This document shows, one piece after another, positions 2,467 through 61,548 of a stretch of 64,000 bases of DNA (position 1 is the first letter of the stretch; every line of letters starts with the position of its first letter). A program made the translations under genes and the position numbers. The stretch comes from Macrocystis pyrifera (Eukaryota > Sar > Phaeophyceae > Laminariales > Laminariaceae): contig JASSKH010000005.1 in the NCBI GenBank assembly GCA_031763025.1, forward strand, positions 12,728,528 to 12,792,527. The letters are read 5' to 3'. The notes under the pieces were generated by a model that saw only the letters and a program-made list of their open reading frames with translations, ran no database searches and had not been told where the DNA came from.

Positions 2467-5400
2467 CTGCCCGAGCATTGGACAACGCCGAGGTGATTCG
2501 CGTCCAGGCATCGAGCGCGTGCGGGGACAAGGACAACGGAAAAAGGGCACGGGAAAGGGCAAGGGAGCGAGAGCGAATGACTAAATTCGGCTCGAACAAA
2601 CTTGATCCCTTTTTCAATTTACACCTGCACTCACATTTTGGGCATAAAGTGCCCCAAGCCCAATCCAACCCTAACCTCAACTCCAATCCCAACCTCAAGC
2701 CCAACCCCAATCCTAGTCTCAACCCCAACTTCAATCTTGACCTCAACTCTGACCTCAACCCCAACTCCAATCCCAACCTCAGCCCCAACCCCAAACCCAA
2801 CCCCAATCCCTGGCCAACCTCAAACCCAACCCTAACTCCAACCCGAACTCCAACCCAACCTAAATCCCAACCCAACCTCAAACTCAACCCGAACTCCATC
2901 CCCAACTCCAACCCTAAACCCCAACCCCGACTCGAACCCCAAATACAACCCCATTCCCAATCCCAACCTCAAACCCAACCCTGACCCCAACTCCAACGCC
3001 AACCCAACCACCACCAACTCCAACTCCAACCCTGACTCCAACTCCACCTCCGACCCCAAACCCAAACCCCATTCACGCCCAGCCCACCCGCCCACTGAAC
3101 GCGGCGCAACAGACGGTCCTCCCTCTCCTTTCCTCTTCTCTCCTGCCCTATCCTCACCCTCCCAGACGTAGTTGCAGTCCTTGTCCTTCCACGCGGCTTC
3201 CGACCTCTCCAACACTCCCAGCTTGGAGATTACGTCCGTCCTAACCGTGTTGTTCTTGGCCACCAGCTGGAACAGCTCCTTCTTTTGGGCGTCGGTGAAC
3301 TTTCCCTATGATGGTGGAGGCGGGGGCGGCGGTGGGAGGGGGGGGGGGGGGGGTGTACTCGATAGGAGATACGCACTCGATCTCATGCATGGCCGTACTC
3401 TTATGACCATAGACCCTCGCATCCCTACAATGCCGGGACGGAGCGCGTCGGGTTTTCACCGACCAGGCAGACATTGCTGTGCACCAAGCTCGAAGCGCCG
3501 TGAGGTGTTGGGCGAGTCGCATGAAGGGTGAGCTGCATCCTGCTCAGAACCGCTTTAGAGGCGGATTTTCTTGCATATGGATGACAGCATCAATGGGTGG
3601 GGGGGTTAGGAGGTGGGCGCGGGGGCAAGGCAAGAAAGAAATAATGGACTGTATACCTGTTATTGGGATGCGGCAGTGTTCTACACTATGACCCAAAATA
3701 TAAGGATCTTTTGGATTGAATATTTATATGCCAACGGTCCCTATATTTCAGGTCAGAGTGGGTATATATCGTAGCGGTTCGCCAGACAGATCACCAGACT
3801 GCCGACGAGCAGGAGAAGGAGCAAGAAAAACGAAAAACGAACACAACCACACCCACGCGAGCGCAAAAAAAAAGGTTTAGGGTCGTTCGTGTTTTGGGTG
3901 CCACGCGCGCACACACAACACATCAACGGAGAGCACGCGATGGGTGACCCCCCCCCCCCCCCCCCCCCCCCGCGGGCGCGCGCCGTTCCCCCCTCCCGCT
4001 TGCGTGTGCGAAAAACATTTAGGTGGAGCAGGCGAAAACAAAAATTGAAGACCGTTTGCGCCAAGCGACAGGCGGCGTTTTCGGTTGGGGGAGAGGGGGG
4101 GAGTGTGTGTGTGTGTGTGGGGGGGGGGTGTACTCATTATCATGCATGGCCGTAGTCGTAAGACCATAGACCCTCGCATCCCTACAAGGCCGGGACGGAG
4201 CACGTCGGGTTTTCATTGACCAGGCAGATATTGCTTGCACCAAGCGCGAAGCGCCGTGAGGTGTTGGGCGAGTTGCATGAAGGATGAGCTGCATCCTACT
4301 AAGAACCGCTTCAGAGGCGGACTTTCTTGCATATGGATGACAGCATCAATGAATTGATTTCTTTTCTGGTGTGGCCACTTCCAGAGACAGCAATGGGTTT
4401 ACTATGTAACTGCCTCGCCTCACCATATACACACTACGTGATACGACCATCCCCCTTGTGCGGAGTGAAGGTTCTCCCCGCACGAAAATGATCTAACTCG
4501 ACCGCCAGCCGTGTGCGTGTGGGGAGGGTTACTCCAGTATGTTGGTACTTTAATTCTTGTGGTCTCACCGTCTTCTCGACGCCGCTGTTGATGGCGACGA
4601 ACTTGTCCATCATGGAGTCGACCTGATCACCGTAGTGGTCCAGGGCTACAGTCTAATTCACGCCGTCCCCCCCCCCCCCCCCGCCCACAAAAACAAAAAA
4701 GCAACCAAACCAAACGAAAACAAAGACAGACAGAACACACCCAAACAAAAAGGCGGGAGGGAGGGAAAGGAGGGAGGGACGCAGAGAGAGAGATACTTCA
4801 GTTTTTTTTCTATGTAAAATGCCGTTTGCTCGTACGCAAGACATCCCATTATTTCGCTGAACGATGAAACACCCGCGAACAAGTGCAAAACCGCAAAACA
4901 CAGCAAGCGGTAAGGTAATAACGCCGTGGGCAAGGACACCGACGAACATCTCTTATTACTCTTAGCCGGGAATATATGTGCCGCTCTTGGCCGGGAGTAT
5001 ATGTGCCGCTCTTGGCCGGGAATATATGTGCCACTCTTGGCCGGGAATGTATGTGCCGCTCTAGGCCGGGAATATAATGCCGCTCTTGGCCTGGAATATA
5101 GTGCCGCTGTTGCCCGGGAACATAGTGCCGCTCTTGGCCGCTCTTGGCCGGGAATATAATGCCCTATTGCACAATTATTATAACATTAATGTAAACCAGG
5201 CAGTAAGTTCCCGGCGAGAGTGGTATGTTACTGTTATTAACCCTCTGGCACAAAAAAAAAAAAAAATAGGACAAGAAACAAAACGCAACGTATGGTATTA
5301 TCAAACCACCATATTTCGAGTACATTGCGTCAACAGGAGCAGATATCGTAGCTTGAGCGCGCAGCAACACGAGCAGGGTCTGTAGGGGGTCATGCTGCCT

Positions 5401-8400
5401 GCGCCCCCACGTCGAACGATATTCCCTGCATTGTAGGTCCATTCAGACTACCAAGTCTGTATGTATATAACCCTACATCACCCACCAACCAAGCAGTGGT
5501 CGACAGCCAAAATGCCGTACAGTGATAATCGTCCTTTTTTTTGTCTTCATTTTTCTCCCAATCTAAAGTCACGCAAAATACAAAAGCCCGACATCCCACA
5601 ACGTAGGTACATACCTATCCTTTCTCGGGACCCAGACAAGGGGGGGGGGGGGGGGTACTAACTTCAACTACCGCACAGGTCCATAGTATATAGGCCCAAA
5701 AGAAGCCCGAGTCACCCACATTGGTGCGTTGTTTCTCAAAAACCACGGCCTGAATCGAAAATGTTGTCCGTTTCAAATACACGGTTGATGATGGACTCTC
5801 CATCGATGCTACATTCGTATTCCTCATATAATATAATCGGAAAAAACTTCTTTCTCCCCGTTTTGGGCCTATATATATATATATATATATTTATTTATTT
5901 TTCTTAAATGAAGAAAAACGCCAAGAAATCCCACCCCACCGATCGTTTTTTTCCCCATTACGTATTTATATGACCCATCATTTTGTTTGTTGAAAAAAAA
6001 AAAAATTTAAAAATCGTGAACTAAAAAAATTGTTCAGAAGTTCCACCCCCCACTGGTTTGTTTTTTCATCACGTACGTATCATGCAACATGGTTTGTGTG
6101 TGAATGACCTCTTTAGGATTGTGGTGTCGTTTCGTCTTGTTGTCGCCATGCTTTCCCCACTCATGTATCGGTAAATCGTGCGAAATTGATTCGCACACAG
6201 CAGCGCCGTAAGGGAGGAGGCGGAGCGGGGGGGGGGGGGGGGGGGCGTACTCATTTGTTGCTTGCATTAGTCAGTTGACCATGGACCACGCATCCCTTTC
6301 GAGACGGAGGGGGGGTGTATTCATTTATCATGCATGGCCGTAGCCGTTTGACCATAGACCCTGGCATCCCTGCAATGCCGGGACGGAGCACGTCGGGATT
6401 TCGCCGACCAGGAAAACCTTGCTCGCACCCCCCGCGAAGCGCCGTGAGGTGTTCGGCGAGTCGCATGAAGGCTGAGCTGCATCCTACCGAGAACCGCTTG
6501 TGAGGCGGACTTGCGTATGGATGACAGCTTCAATGAGCGAGGGCGTACTCATCTGCTGCTTGCCTTAGTCACTTGACCATTGACCACGCATCCCTTTCGA
6601 GACGGAGCCCTGTTTTCAACTCCTAATATGGACACCTCCAACAATTGGGCGCTCATTACGTTATTTCCATATATAACGTAGAGTTTTTTTGCAGCACCGC
6701 AAAGGGGGGGGGGGAACTACCGTTTCGGAATGGATGTAGCCCCAAAGCTCCCAGACACCTTGGCGCCCGTCGCGCCGGGTTGAGTGCAAAACGTTTAAAC
6801 GCACCTGGCCAAGGACGGTCCCAATGATGGTGATATGGTTCACGTCTAGTTCTCTTAAAGTCGTGCAGTCCGGTTCAAGCCTGGTCCGATTGGCCGTTTC
6901 GAAGGATATCGGTGTGCGGAGAGTAGGGGGTGGGGGGGGGGACGGGGGACAGGGGGACAGGGGGGGGGGGGGGGGGGGGGGCGTACTCATTTTGTTGCTC
7001 GCCTTAGTCAGTTGATCACGACACCAAGCCCGCTCGTTCCCAAAAGCCACACACCACCACCACCCAACACCAACCCCACCAACAACAACACCAACACCAC
7101 AACAAACAACAACACACAACACCACCACCACCAACAACCACCAACACACAACACCAACACCAACACACAACAACCACACCAACCACCCACCAACAAACAA
7201 CACAAACCAACACCACACAACACAACCAACAACCAAACACCACACACACACCAACAAACACACCACACACACAACACAACACACACACACAAACAACCAA
7301 ACCAACAACAAAACCAAACACCAACACCAACACAAAACCAACACAACAACAACACCAACCAACACCAACAAAAAACACAAACAACCCAACAACACACACA
7401 CCACCACCCACACAACCAACACAACACACAACACAAAACACACAACACACACCAAACAACCAAAACACACCAACACCAACACCAGTTGGAATACCAACAG
7501 TGTTTTACCATATGTTTTGTCGTGCACCTATATAGCACATAGGCTTTGGGATTGGTCATCGGGTTGTACTCCTAGCCTTTCTCAAAATCAGTTTTGGGTG
7601 AGGTACAGAGCTTCTATACTATAATCAAGTCAGGAGCTTCGGGAAAATATTATTGTAGGTGCTACCCTTATGAAACATAGGAGCTCCTATACTACAATCA
7701 AGTGGGGAACCTCGGAAAAAAAAGCAGGTGCTACCCCTATAAGGCATGAGAGCTCCTATACTATAATCAAGTCGGGAGCTTCGGGAAAATATTATTGCGG
7801 GGGACCATAGTAAGCAGGACCAAAAGTTGTTAGTCAAAATAGGTAAATATATAGGTTTTTATGCATACCATAGGTCCTACTAACTATGGACCCCCTCAAT
7901 AGGTGCTGCCCCTGTAAGGCACAAGAGCTCCTATACTATAATGAAGTGAACAGCCTCGGAAAAAAAATAGGTGCTGCGTCGACCGTAGCAGGCATCTCCA
8001 ACACCCCACCGACTCCTGTTTTTCCAACAAAAACAAACAATACGTGAGTTTTCCTCCTTTTTCAGTAGCTGTTTATGAACCACCGACGTTGAAAACGACG
8101 CCGTCGCCCCTTGCGTATACCAAGGTACATAGGAAGGCAAACAACGCCATTACAAAGTCACAAGATGTATTAAAAAAACGAAATCACCGAAAACAAAATC
8201 ACCGCGCCTGATATAATAGTCGCTCCCCCGACCCGACCTACACACCTCGCGGGCTCGGGCAGCGTGGACCACAAGACTACGCCATGCGTTTCCGTCTTGA
8301 TTCCTTCTGGGGGAATCTCGTTCTCTCCGTACAGAAAGTCTCGCTGCCGCTTCAGGTGGGCCTGGTCGAACCATCGGCACGGGGCAGGGTGAATTTTAGA

Positions 8401-17015: not shown

Positions 17016-20000
17016 CTGAACCACAACCAACCACCGTAATCGTAACGTAGACCGATAAAAGGAGGAGGAGAGCGAGGAGGAGGAAGAGGAGGGAGGAGGA
17101 GGATGGGGGGGGAGGGGGAGCAACAGGGGGAGCAACAGGATGAGTAGTAAGAGGAGGAGGTACAAGAGGTCACCGAAAAACAAAGTTCAGAAAAGACTCC
17201 CAATTTACTCGGTTAATCATGACCGCACAACAAATATCTTCGGCAATATTGAAGGGACTCCTTGGCAATTTCGTGGGGAAATATCGAAGATGAACAATTA
17301 CAGATACCGTGAGATTATAGTAGGTGCGCCGCGGCTCATTCATATATGTATACGAAGTGTATGCATACACCATGAAGGTTTTTCAATGTACAGAATCACA
17401 AGGATATTTTATCTCTGACCTGAGCTTTTGGTGGACGAAAACCGTCGCCGGCCCCCACGACATCTGGTACCTCTTCTTGAGCAGCACGCGCAGCCAGGGC
17501 GTCTTAAAGCCGTGGTGAACGTCACGACGCGCGCGCCGGGGCGGAGCAGGGTCGCCCTCTCCGCGATAGCCGCCAAGGTGTCCTCGGCAAAGCAGGTGGA
17601 GTTGGCGAAGATCAGGTCACCGTCGGACCAGTCGCACTCCGGCTCCAAGAAAGAGCCCTATATATACATGAATGGTAGTTGAAGCAACCGGGGAAAGTGC
17701 GGGGCAATGTGACCCCTTGAGTTTTGAAGAATGACTTCGGGCGAAGCATTTGTTTTGCAACAATTATAGGTTTTGGATAGACTAGTAAAGTCTCCTCCCC
17801 TGTCAGCAGAGGGCTGACGATTGTGGTGGTACGGGGGGGATCGGTTGAGAGGGGGTTTGCTCGATGGGTGCGCGCACTTTTGCGTTCACGGCGGAAATCC
17901 GGACATATGTGCAGTTTCAGTATGAGGGGAGAGGGGAGCAGGAGAGCGGGGGGCGTACTCATTTGTTGCTTGCCTTAGTCATTTGACCATTAACCACGCA
18001 TCCCTTTCGAGACGGAGCACCGTTCCTACTCCTAATAGAGACACCTTCAACAGTTGGGCACTCATTACGTTGTTTCCATATATTACACAGAAACTTTTTG
18101 CTAATCTTATCCCCTTCCTGTTTGGCCGCCTGTAGCCACCATCTATCTCCTAGGATAGCGATCGTTTTCTCGCTGCTATTCACTGTATCAAACTCCTCCA
18201 TGTCACATTCGTCTATTTTCCTCATCTTATCTTCTAACACATTCGTCCTTGTATATTTGACATTCTCCTACTATGTGAGTTCTACTCTCTATTGCTTTGT
18301 CACACGGGCACATCTGTGCGTCTACTTCCTCCTCCTCCCGGCTACTGGTGTACCTCTTTCTTCTTTCTGGCAGGTCCAAGTCCCCTACACGAAAGCGCAG
18401 TTTCAGCGTTTCGCGAAGTCCATTGGGCCATGGAAATACGTTTGCATTCCTTTTCCTTCCCTCAATCCCCCGTATATCTCTAAGCGTTTTTTTCGATTCC
18501 ACCTTGTTCTTAGCGCTAGCCTTTCCCTTCTTTCTATCCTTTCTTCTACTTCTGCCTTGTACCTCCAAAACTTCCCGGCCGACATTACCTCTCCTTGGTT
18601 TCCCCCTGTATCCTTCCACACTTTCTCAACTACGCCGTTCCACCTTATTCCAGCTCGCCCTTTTGTTACTTTCTCCCATACAGCTCCATCAACTATGACT
18701 GGCAACCTCTTTCTTGGCATGTTCCCTACTTTATATTGCCAGTTCAACTTTCTCACGTCTCTAGTTGTCTTGAGTGGGTGCATTCCCAGTTCTGCTCTTA
18801 ATACTGTATTACTAGTCGTACTTGAGCATTTTAGGATTTTTGTAGCTGCTGTCATTTGTACTGTTTCCAACTGTTTTACGAGTTTCGCGTTCCCTTCCCA
18901 TACTTCTCCTGCATATTCTAGCTTTGGTACTATCACATTCATCAGGATACATGTCTTAATTCTAGTGTCTAGGTTCGAGTCTGTTAGGATAGCATCCATC
19001 TTGCCTAGTGCCTTGCGCTTTCCTATTACTTTTGCCATATGCGTATCCCAAGAGCAGTCTTTTGAGATCTCTACGCCAAGGTATGTATACTGGTCTACCA
19101 TCGGCAATTCATCTTCTCCCCATTTCCAACTGAAATTTACCGGGTTTACCTTATCTTCGTTACAAACAACTATTGCGCATTTCTTGACGTTCACCCTCCA
19201 TTTCCTGGTGTATTCTAGCGCCTTCTCTATTTGTTTCTGCAATCCTTCGGGTGTTTCTGATATCCCCACGAAGTCATGCGCAAACATCAATCCCGACACC
19301 GTATCTTCCCCTACCGTGACTCCCTGCCTTGCTCCCTCGACTGCTACTATCAGGTCGTTAATATATATCTTGAATAAGTTTGGAGCAGGAGACCGGGGGG
19401 GGGGGGGGGGGGGAGGGGGGGGGGAAGGGGGGGGGGGTGAGGGGGAGAGGGTCGGACAGCTTACCGTTCGCTGGGTGTGCGAAGACAGCGTCCCGGATAT
19501 TTATGCCTTCTCGGGGAGGAAGGGAAAGGAGAGAGTCGGAGAATCGTAAGTATACAGCGCGTTGGGTGCACTAACAAAGATGCTCCGTCTCGAGAAGCGA
19601 GTTGGTTCAATAGCGCGTTAGGATGATACTTATCTGGTATTGTATATTTTTATATACCCCAAGGGTTGTGTCATTTATGGTGGCGGACAGCGTGAAGTTC
19701 ACCGTCGCAGCGCAAGTCAGATGAAACAAGGGTCGCCGCATAATTCCCACATTGAATCGAAGCAAGCACGCCTCATTGCGCGGAGCTTGGCGTTGAAAAC
19801 AACCCAGAAATGAGCCGAGCCGTACCCGAATGAATGCACTTGCGTGTGTGGACGGAATCGAAACGCCCCGAGCCGCCCCGCCCGCCCCTTTGGGGTAAAA
19901 GCACGCGATTGCCATGTTCTGACCCTAATCGCATCGATGCCGTTGACAGGCAGCGAAGAGCATCTTCTCACGTGGTACAGCTTGATGACCGCGGGACTGC

Positions 20001-27972: not shown

Positions 27973-30900
27973 CTGCGGTTGTTGCTGCGCTGCAGTCACC
28001 ACGCGATTGACAGCCGGCAGCATACAAGTGCGTATTATATACCTGGCATACGTCGAACAGTAATCGAAACGCACGCATGCCATATAAACAACACATTACA
28101 TATTATACATATTAGGGCCCGTCTCAACGAGAAACCTTGTTCATGATAATCGAATAGGGAAAAAAAAAGTTTGCTTTGATTTGAATAGAATTTCGTGAAG
28201 AACATGCCTTTGGGTCCTATCGAGGAATAGCGGAGTAAAAAAAAAGTCGAATAACGCACAAGCGTCAACGAACCCCAGAGGGCAACCAACGAGGCGAGCG
28301 ACGTCCCGCGTCCTCCCCGGGCGCCGCGGTCAGCGGCCGATTGTTTCTGCCGGCACCACCGAAGAGGTTATCGCTCTTGGGACGTCTTGGGTGGCCGGCA
28401 CAGCCCCGAAGCCCCACGCAGGCAGCAGCGACGGGGATACAGCGATCGAACTTTTGAGCGAAGTTGTGACCTGGTCGGTGCTCGTGTGGTTTACGAGGCA
28501 AAAGAGGGATGAAAAGCTGGGTTTGCGACGGCCTTGTATAATTTTGAGGCGCCGCGGATGGCCTACTCTGTGCTAGGGGCCGTCGGACCTCGTGCTGCGG
28601 CTTCTCCGGTGGCCCTGTCTCTCGGGAATGGTGGATCTCACCTGTGAAGCAGTCGACAACACGACTCAAGTTTGCGTGGCTTGCTTCGGTTTCAGGAACA
28701 TGCCACGTCGAGTTGGACAAAGTCCCCGATTCGAATAACACGAAGAGCAAAATAAGTCCCAAAATTCTTCCTTGTTTTTATTCGTTTTATTCGAATCAAA
28801 TGTCCAGATGCCTGATTGATAATTCACTGTTCGACCGATCAGATGCGAATCAAATCAAACGAAAAATATTGGCAAGAGTATCATGAAAAAAAGTTTCTCG
28901 TTAAGATGGGCCCTTAGGTGTATGTATACAAACGTGCGAATAAAAGAAAAAGCATGTTGCTGTAAAAAAACAGCATCACCGCAACGTCAGCGGCTGATGC
29001 TCACGCTTCTCGACTGCAGCACGGCCACCGCGCGGGCAACTCGAGACGGGTTGCACCAAGCAAGTCCCGCAAGTTAAAGAAAGCTCACTCGATCCTTCTT
29101 TAGACTACTGTAGGCACCGGGTTGGTCGAAACCGGCGCGTCGCAGGTATCGCAATCGGTGTCAATGTAGCCGGTGATACGCAAGACAACGAGCGGAGTAG
29201 ACGAACGAACAGACAGACAGACAGACTACGTAAGTACTACGTCTACGAATAGGGCCGGTATAAAATGCGCCAGCCAATAACAATACCGGCACTATAGCCG
29301 CAACCGGCACTAATTACTCCGCACACTACCACACTGGTGAATCCCATCTGTATTGCCAAAAGCCAAACGATTCCACAGACCCCAAATCGGGCAACCGGCG
29401 CTACTCAGCCGATGCTGTAGAGGGACCACTGCTGTAGTAAAAGCCAGGAGGCCTTCCCTCAATATCACTGTGGATATATAGTATCTAGAGAGAGGTAAAC
29501 AAGGCAAGGCTGCCCAATATATGCAGTAGACCGTGCGAATTCGATGAAAATAATGAATCCCGCCGCATTCAAAATACGCAACAGCAAGGTCGTCGAAAAC
29601 CAAAACACAGCAGCACGGGGACGCCGGGGCCCTCCCTGTACGTAGACGTGTTGTGCGATATCTGGTAGTAGAATACGTACAGGCAGTAGAGTATATTTCG
29701 GTTTATAGTATCATGTGTCAGATTGAATCAAATTTCCTCGAAATTGATCGAAACGCAAAACAACTCGAGCCATAGGAGCCTGCGGTCAACCTGCCAGTGT
29801 CAACGTGTCAAAACTTTGTTGCCGCTGGTGCTGCTTGTCAAGCCCAAAGGGCACAGCCAACCCTGCCAGAAGATGCTATTACCGGGGTCCATAGTTAACA
29901 GGACCAAATATTGTCAGTAAAAATACCTCGATATATAGGTTTTTATGTATGCCATAGGTCCTGTTAACTATAGACCCCCCGTAATACGAGCCGCTCCATC
30001 TCGCTCCTGCCCGACAGCAGTCAACGCCCTGTATGGTGCCCGGAATACAACAGCAGCTCGTTAGTACTGTTCTCTTGGGTACTGGTACTGTAAAATACTG
30101 CGGCGCACCAATTCTTTTGTACTTGTTTGTTTTCTTCCGTCGAGACAGCTTTTGTCTACCAGATAAAAGGGGGTTTGTGACGTCCATGGGCTAGAGTTCA
30201 GGGAAATGAGCTACTAGACACAAAACTGTGAAAATACCATGATCATATCGTACGTATAAAATGCATTCCTGCCTGCGTACCTTCAGTCAGGGCTGGTATG
30301 TAATTGGTATATAATACATACCGGCTATATACGCATACAGGCACTCACCGATAGGCAATACTGTATCATGGAACGCTACAGGCTGGGCTGGCCAATGATA
30401 GCTTTTAAACTCATCCGGCGGTTTCTCAACCATTTGGAAATGTTGCGACTCAAAGTTAGTAGCAGTGCGTTCCTGAGTCTACGAGTACAGCACATTGCCG
30501 ACTTTAGAAATTTCGAAATCCGAGTTGGTTTCGTAAAAAAACACAAATTTAGGAATAGAATAGAAAGACCATGCCTTCGTTAAACGCGATATAAATATAT
30601 CGATGTTGGAGTCTATCAGGTAAACGCAGGCCCAAAACCCCTGTGTTGCGGATTGCGCTCGAAATTGGTGTGCATCTTCCTTGAGGCATGACGAAACGAC
30701 TGGTATCCTCACCATCGCTTAATTCGTCGTCCATCGAGAGATCAGGCGTGCATACGAGCCCCTCAACAAATACTTCGAGGAGCAGCACAAAATGTGGGAT
30801 TTTCGGTCCAACTTTTGCTTTTTGGCCTGTATTGTTTCCGTTGTGGTCTAGTTTTTATTTTCTTGGTCTGGATTGTTTACGTTGTACTCGAGGTCAAGAC

Positions 30901-31836: not shown

Positions 31837-34800
31837 GATGCTGTTGCTCTTGGATCGCCCGAACTCTTGGGTTGTGGTTTTGTTGAATCACCCCGATATA
31901 TTCATGTACGCGCACTCAAACGTGCAACATTTCGCGCGACCTCTGTACCGGTATTCGGTCTTACATCGTCGTATGGTACGTGGTATGTATAACTCGTGAC
32001 CCTACCCGCGCGTGGTGGCAGCTTGGGCGGGTGGGAACGTTCGGAGGCTCTAAGGACTACACGGGCGCGCCTTTCTTCGCGAGCATGTCGGCACTTCGTG
32101 CGGGCGCCGACCTGTCGTACGTCTTCACGGCCAAGGAGGCCGCGCCTGCGCTCAAGGCCTACAGCCCGGAGCTCATGGTGCGCCTGCTGTAGACTAGACT
32201 ACCTGATACTAGGTATATGCAGAATATATCTCGTCGGTTTTTTAGATGTGGGCCTTTTCGTGCTCGTTTATTTGTCGTGTCGATAATGTCCGCCGTCTTT
32301 TTTTTTATTACGGGGGTCCATAGTTAACAGGACCTAATATTGTTATGTATGCCATAGGTCCTGTTAACTACAGACCCCCGTAATAGTACTCGTACTCCTG
32401 TTCCTTTTTGTTTGGGTATTTAATAATTGATACCTGGTACCTACCAGGTGTCACATATTGAAGCATATCTATAGACGTATTTCATGTTTTGCTTGTTTAT
32501 AGAAAATTGTGCTCAGCCGCTGCCGCGCAGTCAACGAGCAAATGTGTTGGGGTAGGGTACGTGGTATACAAGTATTATCCGGGGGTCTGGGGTACCCGGG
32601 TACCAATTCTGAATATGTTGGTCATACCCGGGTAGATACCCGAGTAGATATCCGATACCCGGGTAGGTTCCGTGGTACACCCAGTACCCGGGTAGATATC
32701 CGGGTGCATCCAGCGTATATTCTCTATTAAGCACCCCCTTGTGAAACATGCTACATATACGATGCGTACGGGGGGGGGTAGAATATCGTACGTTATATTA
32801 TGAGCTCTATAACTGCGGCTTTTACTTGTTCCAAGGCTTGCACTAACCGTTCGACCAGCAAGAAAAAAAAAAGGGTTTTTTGAGAGTGAAAAAAATACCC
32901 GGCAGGACAGAATGCAGATACTACCCCGGCTAACGAACAACCCAGTTTCATAAAAAAAAAAAAAAATCGTGACGATAGCAAGACGATAGGGTAGAACAAG
33001 CAACTAACGTGTTGCATTTCTAAGCCGCCTGTCGCTAACAGAGCGAACACGGTGATACAGGGGGCAGAACACCGCACGTACTGTAGTCGCATCGAGTACG
33101 TGTAGCAGGGGCGGGGTGCGACGCCGCCCAGAAAACGGCGCATAGAAAGCGCGAAACGATCAAGAGAATGCGGCGCGGCATTTTGAGCACGATCGGGCCA
33201 GAAATATTGAGCCACAAAAACCGAAAACCCCCCGACACGGAGGCATGCGAGTCGTGTGTACGAGCGCGTCGCGCGTTCGTGTCGTGTTGCGTTGCGTAGC
33301 TCCGCGTGCACGCCTCTCCCTACAACTTTGTCTTATTACGAACGGCGTCACGGACCTATTCACGTATACGCCGGGTTTGGGCTAGGGTCAGGATTTGGAT
33401 TGTAATTATCAGGGTTAGAGGGGGTTTACGCCGCTAGCAGCAGCAGATCGTGTAGTGCCTGACGTAAGAGTAGAGGTTCGGAGCAGAAATAGGAACGAGG
33501 GTGCGCTGTATCTCTCACAGCGCAGGCGTCGAAAGTTAAAAGTTCCCTTCACTCCTGCTGTCTGTAGCGGTTTCGAATTCAAGTAAACCGCCTTGCAATA
33601 CAGTACGAAACCCTAGTTTTCCTAGGCAGTCGTTCTTGCACTGCAAATACGAAAGAAACTGAAACGAAGCAAGCTGTGAGATCGATTTTTTTTTTAATCC
33701 CAACTCATCGTTGTAAGCACCAATATATACTCTGACGGTATTTTTCGCCGGATGTGGGCTAGGGTTAGAGTTTGGATGACGAGTTGGGCTTTGGGGGGTC
33801 AGGGTGCGTTAGCCGTGTTCCACCCACGCTCGACTCCCACCACACACTCGACCGCACCACAGGTAACGCCTGTGTACTCCTCCGACAAGCTGACGGATCG
33901 GTTAGAGCGGAAGGGTGAGCTCGTCCAGGCCGTGACGTCGCTGTTCCCCAAGCTTCACTCCCTGCTGCTCGGCCCTGGGCTGGGTCGGAACCCGGTCGTC
34001 CTTGCTGCCGCGGCGGAGATGGTGCGGGGGGCGAGAGAGCGGGGGCTGCCCGTCGTGCTTGACGCCGACTCTCTGGCGATGGTGGCTGAGAACCCAGAGA
34101 CCGTGCGTGGGTTCCCCCTTGCCGTCCTGACCCCGAACGCAAACGAGTTCAGGATTTTGTGCGAGCGCATGGAACGAGACGCCGACACTGTCGCCGCTGG
34201 TGGTGGTGGTGGTGGTGGTGGTGGTGGTGGTGGTGGTGGTGGTGAAGAGCCAGGAGGAAGGGCGGCGGCGGCTACGGCGGCATCGATAACAGTAGAGGAG
34301 AAGAAAGCAGCCGCGGTGGAGAGGCTTGCAAGGTACCTGGGCGGCGTGACGGTGGTGTCGAAGGGCAGGGTGGACATTATTTCGGACGGGGTGCGGACGA
34401 TAGCTTGCGCTGTCCCCGGAGGGCTGAAGCGCTGCGGCGGGATCGGCGACGTGCTGGCCGGAGCCATGGGCACCTCGCTCGCGTGGGTCTACTTACAGAA
34501 GCTCGGAGAAAAAGTGGGGGGAGGAGGAGAGGAAGCACAGGAGGTGAGGTCACATAGCGCGGGGGAGAGGGGGAAGGGAAAGGGAGGGGAGGGAGGGGGG
34601 GGGGGGAACGTAACTGAAGGGACGGGGGGGGATGGAGGGCGTTTGCGGGTCTACTGACTTTTTCATGAGGTTGTTGATGTCTTTGCTGGCGTGATATGCG
34701 TATGACATACGTATGTACTCGTTCGTGTAGAGCCAGGAAAAAGTTTTCCCCCCGTTTTTATTATTTGGAGAGATCGACGCTACGAACTTCAAAAGATTTT

Positions 34801-36221: not shown

Positions 36222-36272
<51 letters not shown>

Positions 36273-36298
36273 ACCCCCCCCCCCCCCCCCCCCCCCCC
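36222..36298. repeat. Poly-C run of 77 bases
   Basis: All C except one A at 36273. Begins 16 bp after the foldback element. Confidence 0.97.
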
Positions 36299-36870: not shown

Positions 36871-37539
36871 GTACGAGTACTCAAGGGCGCATGACAAAAA
36901 GATGAACAGACACCACACTCCAAGGGTGCTCGACGAGAAGTGAACACGACCTACAGTCCTTCCCACGGTGTCAAAATGAAGGGGAAAAAAAATGTAACCA
37001 GTGCGTCGGGATTTCTGCACGAAATTACATAAAAAAGGAGTTTTTTTTTCTTCATATTTGTATTTTTTACCCCCCTGTCTGGGTCCCGAAAATTGAAAAT
37101 TGGTAGTGAGGTGTCGGGATTTTGTTTTTTTTCGTTGGCGCCCTGCACACTCCTAAAAAGGTCAAAACGAAAAGAATCCAAGTAGTACAAATTTGGAAGA
37201 AAAAAAATGTTGTCGGGGGTGTCTAAAACCAAGTAATCCAAAATTATATATTTTTTAAAATGTTGTCTTACGTATATCAATTAACCTGTGACCACAGCGC
37301 TCCGGTTTTTGGTTCATTCTAACTTTTTTTAGGTGAGGTGGCGAAAAAAAGCTGATGCGGGCGTGCCCCTGATGTATCTCAGGTAACTTTTTTCGTAGAC
37401 GCTTTTTCCCCCCCCTTTTATTTTGCCTGCAGCCTACATACAACCTGCAACCCACAGCCTGCAGCCTGCTTACAACATAAACCTTCGCTTGGGATACGTA
37501 CGTATAGGAAAGGTGTATCGTCTGTATGATATCACACGG

Positions 37540-38445
37540 GTGATAACATAACATCCCCCCTTCTGACACGGGTGATAATATAACACCCCCCCCGTATCAC
37601 ACGGGTGATGGGATAACACACCCCCTTGTAACACGGGTGATAACATAACACCCCCCCCCTTGTAACACGGTTGATACCATAACACCCCCCCCGTATCACA
37701 CGGGTGATACGATAACACACACCCTTGTAACACGGGTGATAACATAACACACCCCCTTCTAACACGGGTGATAACATAACACTCCCTCGTATCACACGGG
37801 TGATGGGATGTCACACACCCTTGTAACACGGGTGATAGCATAGCACCCCCCCCTTGTAACACGGGGGATTATATAACATCCCCCCGTATATCACGCCCCC
37901 CCGTATCACTCGGGTGATAGGATAACACACCCCTCTCAACAACACGGTGATAACATAGCACACCCCCTTCTAACACGGGTGATAACATAACACCCCCCCG
38001 TATCACTCGGGTGATAGGATAACACACCCCTCTACAACACGGGTGATAACATAGCACACCCCCTTCTAACACGGGTGATAACATAACACCCCCCCCCGTA
38101 TCACACGGGTGATAGGATAACACACACCCTTGTAACACGGGTGATAACATAACTCACCCCCTTCTGACACGGGTGATAGCATAACACCCCCCGTATCACA
38201 CGGGTGATAGGATAACACACCCCCTTGTAACACGGGTGATAACATAGCACCCCCACCTTGTATCACGGGTGATTAGATAACATCCCCCCGTATCACACGG
38301 GTGATAACATAACACCGCCCCTTGTAACATGGGTGATAACATAACACCCCCCCTTGTGACACGAGTGATAACATAACACCCCCCCCGTATCACACGGGTG
38401 ATAGGATAACACACCCCTCTAGAACACGGTTGGTAACATAACACA
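37540..38445. repeat. Satellite array of ~32-36-bp units
   Basis: About 27 units of ACACGGGTGATAACATAACA followed by 4-9 C and either TTGTA or CGTATC. GTGATAACATAACAC varies little while the C run varies in length. The minus strand is open in several frames because the repeat lacks stops; this is not taken as coding. The unit matches the terminal repeat of the element at 62430-62658. Confidence 0.93.
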
Positions 38446-38559
38446 CGCCCTGGGATGTATTTCAGAGCCGATTTTTTTCAAAACCAGGGGGGGAGGGGGG
38501 GGGGGAGTCACCCAACGACAATGGCGGCTTTTGGGAAGAGAGATCTCTCACCGAGATGT

Positions 38560-39135: not shown

Positions 39136-40121
39136 ACGCATATTTCATACGAAGTCTGTAGGTATTCGTAGTACCTGGATTCTTCGTGAAAGAGCGTGGA
39201 CCGTATATATATATACCGATGCAAGTAGAGGGGTGACAGCCCCCCCCTCTGCAGTCTACTGCTCGCTGCTTCTGGAGGAATAATCGCGGCTGTGTTTCAA
39301 GCTCTTGAGTTTTCGATCAATCACCCACCAACAACGCAGTGTGCGCCCAAGCGGCGGAGATCCCAGCGGGGACGACCTCGCAGCATTCCCACGGCGCGCA
39401 ACTGCTTGTTCGGTTCTCCACCGCGAGCAAATAAACAAAAGGCTACTCGCGAAAAACTGAATCTAAATCCTGTGTCACAATAACGCGAGAGAGACACACA
39501 CACACGCTTTTTCGCCTTTTTTTTCAACCTGTTTTTTTTTTTTTTTTGTTCTTCATTTTTTTCATTGTTTTTCGAGCCGATTTTAGTACACGCCCGGCGA
39601 GCGCAACTATATACAGTAGTGCGCCAGGTACGAATACCAAGTGTATATCAGGTATTTGATAGGAGGGGGGGAGGAGCATGCCTTTTCTTTGGCGACCCCA
39701 CCGACGGGCGAAAAATATTATTAGGAAAAAATCACAAGAGATCGTACTTAGGCTGATTCTTATCGGAGAACTATTTTTTTTGCAGAATTTTCCAAAGTTT
39801 GGAAATAATTGGAGATATGTTCGTGTCAAGATACGGAGGCGTTCTGTCACTATTCGTGAAATTGTCCAGACGAAAAAAAAAATCGGGTTTGTTAAATTTC
39901 GAATATTTGGGGGGGAAAAATGAGGAAAATCTGGCAGATAAAAAAATTGCGCGAAAAAAACATGGAAATTATGGAAAAAAAGCTCTCCGCTAAGAATGAC
40001 CCGTATAAGTGGAGTTTTGCGACTTAATGCTATTTGTTTGGGACGCATAGTATATTTCGGTAAGGGTACGCCCCGGGATTTTCTTGGTTTTCCTCAGTTG
40101 AACTCTATACTATTAATATTA

Positions 40122-40227
40122 TTACGGGGGTCCATAGTTAACAGGACCAAATTTTGTTAGTAAAAATAGGTAAATATATAGGTTTTAATGTATACCATAG
40201 GTCCTATTAACTATGGACCCCCCGTAA
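40122..40227 (+). mobile_element. Family C MITE, copy 5
   Basis: TTACGGGGGTCCATAGTTAA and complement, forward core, TA on both sides. Confidence 0.88.
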
Positions 40228-41591
40228 TAGTAATAAGAGAGGTCGAAAGTGACTTTTGGGATAATATGTAAGGCCGACCCGACGAGCCATGTGATCATAT
40301 TATTCCATCGGCCATCTGACGATGTGTACGGCTTATTTCCAGTCGTATGTTCCATCCACATGCCAAAAGGGTATCTAGAATACAATAACTCGGAACATGG
40401 AAGAAGATGCCATCAATCACAGACCTGAATATTCGACAAAATTCTGCCAATAATGCAGTTCCGCCTACGAAGGACTCTACTCACTCCTAACTTTTGTAGA
40501 TTCATCGCAAAAAATTGTCTGGAAAGCTGGGGTGTCGAGAGTTCGAAATCGCCAGTTGGGATGGAAGTTGACTCGTGTTGACGGAGCGCTAGCGTGAGGT
40601 TTTCCTGTCGTTTCGACCTCGAGGGTTTTTTTTCCCCCTCTCTCAACTCTCAACCCCCCTTTCTCCGAGCTCTCTCAACTCTCAACCCCCCTTTCTCCGA
40701 GCGGGGAGATTGCGCAATAATATTGTGCAACTTCGAAGAAAGCAACAAGCGCAAAGCGGAAGATTATCGAAATACTTTTTTTTTTTTTTAATGTAACAAA
40801 AAAAAAAACGAGATATTGATTGGTTGATTGATTGATTGATTGATTGTTGGTTGGTTGGTTGATGGGTAAGTTCCTCAGTTGTATGGTCAGGAAAAAAGGC
40901 AAAATGTGCCACTCCCTTCGTTGCACGCGTGTTGGTAGAGAGAGAATGGCATGCTCGTAAAGTCTCGAAAGCGTGATCACAGCCCCTGCCTGGTACACGG
41001 AGGTGGAAGGGACCCCCCCCTATCGACATCCTAATGGAACGTGGACGTTGTAAGCACCTACCAGGTAGACACCTGTTGGAGCCTTTAAAACCCCGCAGAG
41101 ATGCGTGGGTTTGTCCACGTACTACGTACGTACGTGCTGTCGGCCTCTAGCGTCCTTTTTTGTTATGTTTTCCCGAATAGTTGTTGCCTATCAATAGAAG
41201 GTATCTCGACTGGATTGGCCCACTAGTATTGAATACTGAATACTTGTGTGGGAGCTTGGTGTGTTTTTTTTTTAGCGTTCCGGTAGGTGCTTACAACGCC
41301 CCCGCCTTTTTTCCCATTTTCTCAAGGTAGGATTTTTTCCCGAGACTACTCGCTTGAGGAGCAAGCACTATACTACTGTATTAGTACTATGTCTCCCCCC
41401 CCAAAAATGGTACGTATGAGAAACAAGTAAAACGGTTTACCCCGGCCTGTCGTACGTTAGGTGTTGTTCGAATCATATTCTATAAAACGAAAAGGGGATC
41501 AACGATACTAGGTCATGCCTTATTTACGATAGTGAGGCATGCCTTAATGCTTTATTGGACATATCGGTTTTAAGTGCCCTTAATCCGTTCA

Positions 41592-47661: not shown

Positions 47662-47759
<98 letters not shown>

Positions 47760-48213: not shown

Positions 48214-48283
<70 letters not shown>
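48214..48283. repeat. Poly-C run of 70
   Basis: Uninterrupted C. It lies 440 bp from the 47.7-kb poly-G run, in the complementary orientation, so the two could pair as a hairpin. Confidence 0.97.
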
Positions 48284-58465: not shown

Positions 58466-58570
58466 TACGGGGCACCATAGTAAATAGGACCAAATATTGC
58501 TAGTAAAAAAAAGGTAAATATAGAGGTTTTTATTTATACCATAGGTCCTATTAACTATGGACCCCCGTAA
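58466..58570 (+). mobile_element. Family C MITE, copy 16
   Basis: Left end decayed (TACGGGGCACCATAGTAAAT), forward core, right end ACTATGGACCCCCGTAA. Confidence 0.85.
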
Positions 58571-58627
58571 TATTACTGCTGTGCTGCCCAACCCTAACCC
58601 CTGTATAACCCGATCTCTGTTGCTGTG

Positions 58628-61053: not shown

Positions 61054-61451
61054 TGTACTCGATGTCATGCATCGTCGGAATCCTATAACCATAGACCCTC
61101 GCATCCCTACAATGCCGGGACGGAGCACGTCGCGTTTTCACCGACCAGGCAGACATTGCTTGCCATCAAGCGCGAAGCGCCGTGGGCGACTCGCATGAAG
61201 GGTGAGTTCCATCCTACTACGAACCGCTTGTGAGGCGGACTTGCACATGGATGACAGCTTCGATGAGTTAATTTATTTTCCGGTGTGGCCATTCGCAGAG
61301 ACAGCAGGGGGGGGGCACTATGTAACTGCCTCGTGGGTGCCTTATCCTATACTCGGTAAACACTGGGTGATGCATGCGACCATTCCCCTAGTGCGGAGAA
61401 AAGGTTCTCCACCTCGCACAAATGATCTATATAACTCGATAGCCAGCTGTG
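61054..61451 (-). mobile_element. SINE-like family A copy 4, near full length
   Basis: About 400 bp matching 4129-4513 throughout. It ends on the minus strand with GAGTACACCCCC. The 5' end stops at CCAGCTGTGACC, 33 bp before the 61.5-kb poly-G run. Confidence 0.75.
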
Positions 61452-61483
61452 ACCGACCGCCAACCAAACCAGAACAAAAAAAA

Positions 61484-61548
<65 letters not shown>
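61484..61548. repeat. Poly-G run of 65
   Basis: Uninterrupted G preceded by nine A. It lies just beyond the 5' side of family A copy 4. Confidence 0.97.

Follow-up and report, generated by a model that had tools for sequence, protein, structure and literature searches.

Two repeat families beside C tracts in the kelp window

The window analysed here is a stretch of 64,000 nucleotides from the genome of the giant kelp Macrocystis pyrifera. It holds copies of two families of repeats, called A and B below, of which family A is represented by one long copy and three 3' fragments. The features belonging to family A are as follows, with "C" counted on the element strand.

17954..19381, minus strand: family A LINE copy, 5'-truncated in the reverse transcriptase (RT) region and decayed
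17948..17953, minus strand: C6 tract after the 3' end of this copy
17935..17953, minus strand: likely target duplication, 3' copy CCCCCCGCTCTCCTGCTCC, matching the 5' copy at 18 of 19 nt
19382..19400, minus strand: likely target duplication, 5' copy CCCCCCGGTCTCCTGCTCC, with more C tract ahead of it
19395..19437, minus strand: poly-C tract with runs of 19, 10 and 11 C, 5' of the copy and taken as its target
17955..18020, minus strand: possible 3' RNA domain with the closing stem GUGCUC/GAGUAC, overlapping the end of the reading frame
6246..6307, minus strand: family A 3' fragment, at the C tract of the family B copy at 6316
6227..6245, minus strand: C19 after the fragment at 6246
6544..6692, minus strand: family A 3' fragment; after it come CCC, TCGCTC and then a truncated family B copy, and C11 lies upstream (6704-6714)
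6982..7018, minus strand: family A 3' fragment, with no C run seen 5' of it
6960..6981, minus strand: C22 after the fragment at 6982

A preliminary description of this DNA had placed a non-LTR retrotransposon at 17954..19394, with a reading frame that stops almost at the end of the element and a tail of C directly after it. The frame indeed ends at the TGA in AAATGAGTACG, 5 nt ahead of the C tract. The four 3' ends that were listed, which read CGTACTC on the plus strand at 6246, 6544, 6982 and 17954, are all four of the family A ends, and they are followed in element sense by 19, 3, 22 and 6 C, respectively. As for the interval, its 3' end stands and its upstream end has to be moved to about 19381-19383, since 37 of 41 scored genomic matches start at query base 12; of the remaining four, one is the locus and starts at base 1, and three start at bases 16, 94 and 125. 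Together with the C run, the final 13 nt of the interval (19382-19394) repeat the DNA adjoining the other end, with one mismatch. Just upstream of the fragment at 6982, in element sense, lies an A/C-rich satellite with an 84-nt period (7053-7484).

The long copy in the window codes for a partial reverse transcriptase and, as far as the stop, for the C-terminal region. Frame changes occur within 17954..19381, and the RT motif reads FAHD, as against FADD in a long copy elsewhere (L028/L064). Its Pfam RVT_1 score of 17.5 bits is under the cut-off of that model, and among PDB entries it matches an R2 structure, 9nl2, at 3.4e-07. The other scored genomic copies are 92-94% identical to it. The identification as a non-LTR retrotransposon is borne out by such copies, which have a common 3' end with variable 5' truncation. 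In one of them (L061), a frame of 634 aa extends without interruption from the RT to the element's end, with RVT_1 at 1.2e-30; among solved structures in PDB, the RT of this copy matches R2 best (1.5e-19), and L1 ORF2p is among the next best. Two long copies, L028+L064 and L020+L065, have about 3.8 kb in common at 95% identity, and a 395-aa open stretch upstream of the RT in the latter copy (L065:3070-4254) matches Exo_endo_phos at 3.6e-11. Judged from these predicted domains, family A is an APE-type LINE. No relative was found in viral_contigs and genome_contigs, where records of this or near genomes may be left out, and Rfam gave no match within the window.

Family B, the shorter partner, reaches up to about 0.5 kb and is represented in the window by five copies.

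3354..3603, minus strand: family B copy, followed by C16 (3338-3353), with a C-rich 5' flank
4129..4522, minus strand: family B copy, followed by C10 (4119-4128)
6316..6541, minus strand: family B copy, followed by C7
59653..59742, minus strand: family B 3' fragment, followed by TCCCCCGCCCACC, with no C run at its 5' side
61054..61471, minus strand: family B copy, followed by CCCCCACCCACC, with C65 (61484-61548) upstream of its 5' end

All five end at or near GAGTACA, with C-rich DNA next. When the last 75 nt of the A and B ends were aligned, the score was 27 for the B copy at 4129 and 25.5 for that at 6316, while 1000 shuffles each reached at most 12 and 11, respectively. For a classification of B as a SINE, with an RNA polymerase III promoter of tRNA, 5S or 7SL origin, neither a tRNA nor an Rfam match was found in the window, whose five copies all start at least ~90 nt further in than longer copies do. 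The interior of one B copy holds a C9 (61307-61315) at a place where the B copy at 4129 reads AAACCCAT; here a C run has arisen within the element. Repeated 3' motifs (GAGTACGAGTAC) and a B-A chimera suggest slippage or template jumps at the 3' end. These cases are found at L056 +1648, at 3354 and 59653 in the window and at L017 3659-4330, and they include B ends with two GAGTACA-like copies.

The common 3' terminus and the C run that follows it

The terminus was searched for in the whole 537-Mb assembly (223 contigs). The exact 19-base 3' end, AAGCAACAAATGAGTACGC, occurs 3427 times (1678 + 1749), and 2505 of these ends (73%; 1208 + 1297) run on as GCCCCCC, six C in all, while the reversed control gave 0 for either form. 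In a looser form, GAGTAC followed by one non-C base and C12 is present 8338 times, whereas the reversed pattern is present 15 times. Of the 120,506 C/G runs of at least 12 in the genome, about 7% come directly after GAGTAC plus one base, where about 29 (120,506/4096) would be expected by chance for one given hexamer. Most of the 120,506 runs are thus not beside these ends, which indicates that other causes, too, make C runs frequent or unstable. Within the window, 47 C/G runs of at least 9 are found, against about 0.4 expected from base composition, and a GAGTAC-type end stands immediately before 4 of the 47.

Similarity searches gave 79 end matches in 60 loci. Mostly they read GAGTAC(G), then C, and past the tract unrelated DNA; no poly(A) tail was noticed in the 79. 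Removal of one weak match and of duplicates, and the exchange of three copies for longer stretches, left 77 copies, from which 15 were skipped (in 13 the locus did not include the 5' end, and two had no boundary or a short flank). The resulting 62 mapped copies include the window's own, and several of them are nested or short with uncertain boundaries (e.g., L017, L024-1157, L044, L052+2404, L056 and L059). A C run of at least 3 directly follows the 3' end in 54 of the 62, and one of at least 6 in 46. The exceptions without C, such as L044 and L059+1403, appear nested or damaged. The expectation of the preliminary description that copies would have one common 3' terminus with a C run directly after it thus agrees with both the 19-mer count and the end matches. 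It had also named copies that continue past this point as counter-evidence, and among the 79 matches no common 3' region lies beyond it. Nesting is seen in twelve of the 62 A copies, which sit at a C tract belonging to another element, A or B.

The last part of the element RNA may fold. A closing stem, GUGCUC/GAGUAC, enclosing two inner hairpins was first seen in single-sequence folds, and it was then followed in an alignment of 36 3' ends, made up of 34 of 35 distinct ends found by pattern and two A copies of the window. In this alignment, 94.1% of the cells are paired and six pairs are changed on both sides; none of 500 shuffles was as high on either measure, and slid versions of the fold were 28-47% paired. 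These numbers have to be read with the fact that the pattern needed similar letters at both ends, so that both the pattern and the route by which the structure was discovered favour the closing stem. RNAalifold, left unaided, returned the inner hairpins only, and in 12 of the 36 rows the closing stem cannot form its outermost pair. Folding of single sequences is mostly weak (z from -3.2 to 0.0), with the closing stem in five of six. A 3' RNA fold ending in GAGUAC is accordingly a supported but still putative feature. If the fold is real, the element ends at the end of the stem, and the C tract starts 0-1 nt later.

C tracts at the target and probable addition of C at the 3' junction

Since copies of family A are truncated at different points, their 5' ends could be mapped, and the DNA ahead of them could be inspected for C. 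A C run of at least 6 on the element strand lies within 34 nt of the 5' end in 40 of the 62 mapped copies, against a G run in one and an A run in three. The background for such a run is 3.2% in the window and 5.0% locally (92/1854). Because the 62 copies came from similarity searches, a second sample was chosen irrespective of flanks. It consisted of 20 consecutive places in the 19-mer list, from the first on contig C125 (18 on C125 and two on C126); 19 places that precede it in the list, on smaller contigs, were passed over. All 20 were located and one was dropped for having no 5' flank; in the remaining 19 copies, a 5' C run is present in 15, an A run in one and a G run in none. In the control, the termini of a MITE-like repeat in the same DNA, a C run was found at 0 of 41 and a G run at one. 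The mean C content of 80 pooled 5' flanks rises from 26% at -60 to 60% beside the element. The 5' C run is absent in 22 of the 62 and four of the 19 copies. A tract at the 5' flank in the same orientation is the mark of homopolymer targeting, and the C tract is, at least in part, the target. For family B, a 5' C run was recorded in 17 of 47 mapped starts and a G run in none, where many of the mapped starts are the points at which the profile begins rather than true 5' ends, and where two or three of the 48 rows taken as B are A copies caught via the common 3' end.

Target duplications were expected, in the preliminary description, to lie outside the C run. The readable ones begin inside it. 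In a test anchored on the end of the C run, the following bases were compared between the flanks, with permuted pairs as the expectation, and duplications of at least 4 nt were found in 16 of the 62 copies against 2.46 expected, and of at least 8 nt in three against 0.07. In L041, for example, C10 TAGTTATTGG stands against C4GC14 TAGTTATTGG. This test was chosen after the results of a first scan had been seen, which favours the account preferred here; the first scan, which it replaced, was poorly tuned and gave 2 of 62 at the 99% threshold (L022 and L044, nested-looking repeats) and 14 of 62 at the 95% threshold. The same anchored test found no excess in the 19-copy sample (at least 4 nt, one against 1.0 expected; at least 3 nt, one against 3.07). 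Copies of this sample are 77-100% identical to the reference, which makes the test weaker there, and the negative result stands. Matches for family B are near chance (four against 1.99 expected). The pair at the window copy, CCCCCCGGTCTCCTGCTCC on the 5' side and CCCCCCGCTCTCCTGCTCC on the 3' side, is not significant as a single case because its flanks are C-rich, and C-rich 3' flanks of other copies scored as high; it was counted in neither scan, as the flank window cut the pair short or an exact match was needed. From the 5' C runs and the duplications that start with the C run, it follows that many empty sites probably had C already.

Such duplications can also be read in another way. If the element has no C tail at all, a pre-existing poly-C microsatellite that is duplicated on insertion would yield the C runs at both ends, as they are seen in the 40 and 15 copies above. 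L009, with C14 GAGGTGAT at both flanks, L053, with C34 TATGATACG against C17 TATGATACG, and L062, with C41/C26, fit this reading, and all six 3' C of the window copy lie within its 19-nt duplication. With the target as the sole source of C, a fresh insertion would have a 3' run no longer than its 5' run. Yet the longest C run is on the 3' side in 42 of the 62 copies and on the 5' side in 16 (p 1e-4). In the 19-copy sample, the 3' run is the longer in 12 and the 5' run in six (p 0.06), and the medians are 9 (3') and 11 (5'), which run against added C; here the target-only account gains slightly, and a mixed origin of the C loses slightly. When only copies with a 5' run of at least 6 are considered, the difference fades (p 0.059 for 40 copies and 0.16 for 15 copies). 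In a set of 19 duplication pairs, 12 have the longer run on the 3' side, five have it on the 5' side and two have equal runs (p 0.027); without four ambiguous pairs, p becomes 0.12. Two individual copies combine short target C with long 3' C. L037 has CCC in the 5' copy of the duplication against C9TCCCC in the 3' copy, and L014 has C5 on the target side against C18 on the 3' side, on a match of 3 nt only. Later expansion of C runs could mimic such an excess of 3' C. It is likely that some C is added at the 3' junction, although the instability of C runs weakens any test by length. A supply of C from the target alone is, on this balance, unlikely.

One further line of argument for added C was rejected. 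A copies within B (L003, L016 and L022) had been taken as proof of an untemplated tail, B having no C run there, but the B piece begins exactly at the C tract, so that insertion of a truncated B into the tract of A fits equally well.

At the other limit stands a true tail owned by the element, i.e., RNA ending in poly(C) and a target that needs little or no C. C tracts after most 3' ends genome-wide and the short target C runs of L037 and L014 speak for it, but the 5' C runs, often of at least 10 nt, are unexplained by a tail alone, and, with C probably present at many empty sites, a wholly element-owned tail does not follow; we consider it very improbable. The two limits enclose a joint reading in which the C comes from both sources, and supply by the target alone is the more serious rival. 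Least credible is an origin of the C runs by later microsatellite growth or assembly artefact at short GC-rich ends, for which the 120,506 long homopolymers and the internal C9 at 61307, absent from the copy at 4129, could be cited, since the association with a single hexamer is extreme (8338 occurrences, as opposed to 15 of the reversed pattern), unrelated DNA flanks the tracts and the MITE-like termini lack C runs. The lengths of C tracts used here are those of the assembly and may be inexact.

Proposed priming at C tracts and comparison with known elements

The joint reading leads to the following account, which we hold to be probable: family A is an APE LINE, family B is its non-autonomous partner, and poly-C/poly-G tracts are the sites at which both insert by target-primed reverse transcription. 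In this process, an element protein would bind the folded 3' end of the RNA, and the G strand of the target would be cut within or beside the G run. The resulting 3' end, made of G, would pair with C after GAGUAC in the RNA, and synthesis would begin there. The C at the 3' junction would then be a mixture, consisting of target C within the duplication and, often, of C that was copied from the RNA or that slippage had added. With C tracts left on both sides, each insertion would create new targets instead of consuming them, and A and B elements would come to nest in one another's tracts. Of the poly(C) tail proposed in the preliminary description, the distinct priming preference is likely to hold, whereas sole ownership of the tail by the element is strained by the 5' C runs. 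More tentatively, and with somewhat more doubt than confidence, it may be proposed that the C homopolymer serves the LINE and its partner both as their address and as the end at which they prime, where the folded 3' RNA positions the start of the RT, the target G run primes and G:C slippage lengthens the tract. If this is true, the pair builds and spreads its own poly-C niche, which would explain part of the more than 120,000 long C/G tracts.

The choice of priming sites and tails by LINEs is known mostly from poly(A) and rDNA systems. Human L1 has an APE endonuclease, truncated copies, duplications that start with a homopolymer matching the tail, and nesting in tails. Family A is like L1 in these respects, as regards the duplications in part of the 62 mapped copies, and it is unlike L1 in that C/G replaces A/T, no poly(A) tail is present and the frame extends to within 5 nt of the C tract. 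At L038 (the copy ending at 1648), the 5' flank resembles inverted family A (window plus strand, ~18650-18695), as in twin priming of L1. Dong, Waldo and others are microsatellite-specific LINEs. The (TG)n-specific Togen is a further example, as given in the consulted part of its source (PMC4640811). Family A is like Togen, Dong and Waldo in having a simple-repeat target, and differs in that the target is a mononucleotide C tract. R2 (PDB 9nl2) is the best RT match among solved structures; unlike R2, family A has an APE-type endonuclease near the N-terminus, and no sign of an rDNA target was seen in the flanks read.

A comparable pair has been described in another brown alga. The RTE-X LINEs RTEX-1 and RTEX-2_Ec32 of Ectocarpus have a 3' end in common with a non-autonomous element of about 600 bp, RTEX-N1_Ec32, according to the portion of the source consulted (PMC12477816). 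Families A and B are similar to them, by description rather than by sequence, in that an abundant LINE goes with a non-autonomous element of about 0.5 kb with the same 3' end; the same portion mentions no ending or target of C tracts for the Ectocarpus elements (PMC12477816). Literature searches, brown-algal repeats included and the tract spelled without brackets, returned in the partial texts seen no LINE that is tailed with or targets poly-C. Poly-G/poly-C tracts can be frequent in Caenorhabditis, as stated in an excerpt of the relevant study (PMC2211496). With its thousands of copies, its sharply defined 3' end, its target in C tracts and, perhaps, a small 3' RNA fold shared with the partner, this system would be a G:C counterpart to the T:A priming of L1. 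It would also offer a testable account of how a transposon may seed and lengthen a class of host microsatellite, and of how a partner may borrow the machinery.

The remaining features of the window may be noted briefly. The MITE-like repeat that served as the negative control for C runs has many copies in 29878-62403 (e.g., 29877-29986, 40120-40229 and 58506-58577) and also occurs at 7835; its ends are like TATTACGGGGG(A/T)CCATAGT. Very long C/G homopolymers lie at 47663-47757 (95), 48214-48283 (70), 61484-61548 (65) and 36222-36298 (51+25 nt), and of these only the tract at 61484 was found beside a family B copy, on its 5' side. A minisatellite at 37530-38451 is built of units of about 32/65/97 nt (ACACGGGTGATAACATAACACCCCCCC), with short C runs within. 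The ORF at 33698-34657 on the plus strand encodes an NAD(P)H-hydrate dehydratase domain (Carb_kinase, 2.5e-22) and is probably an exon of a host gene.
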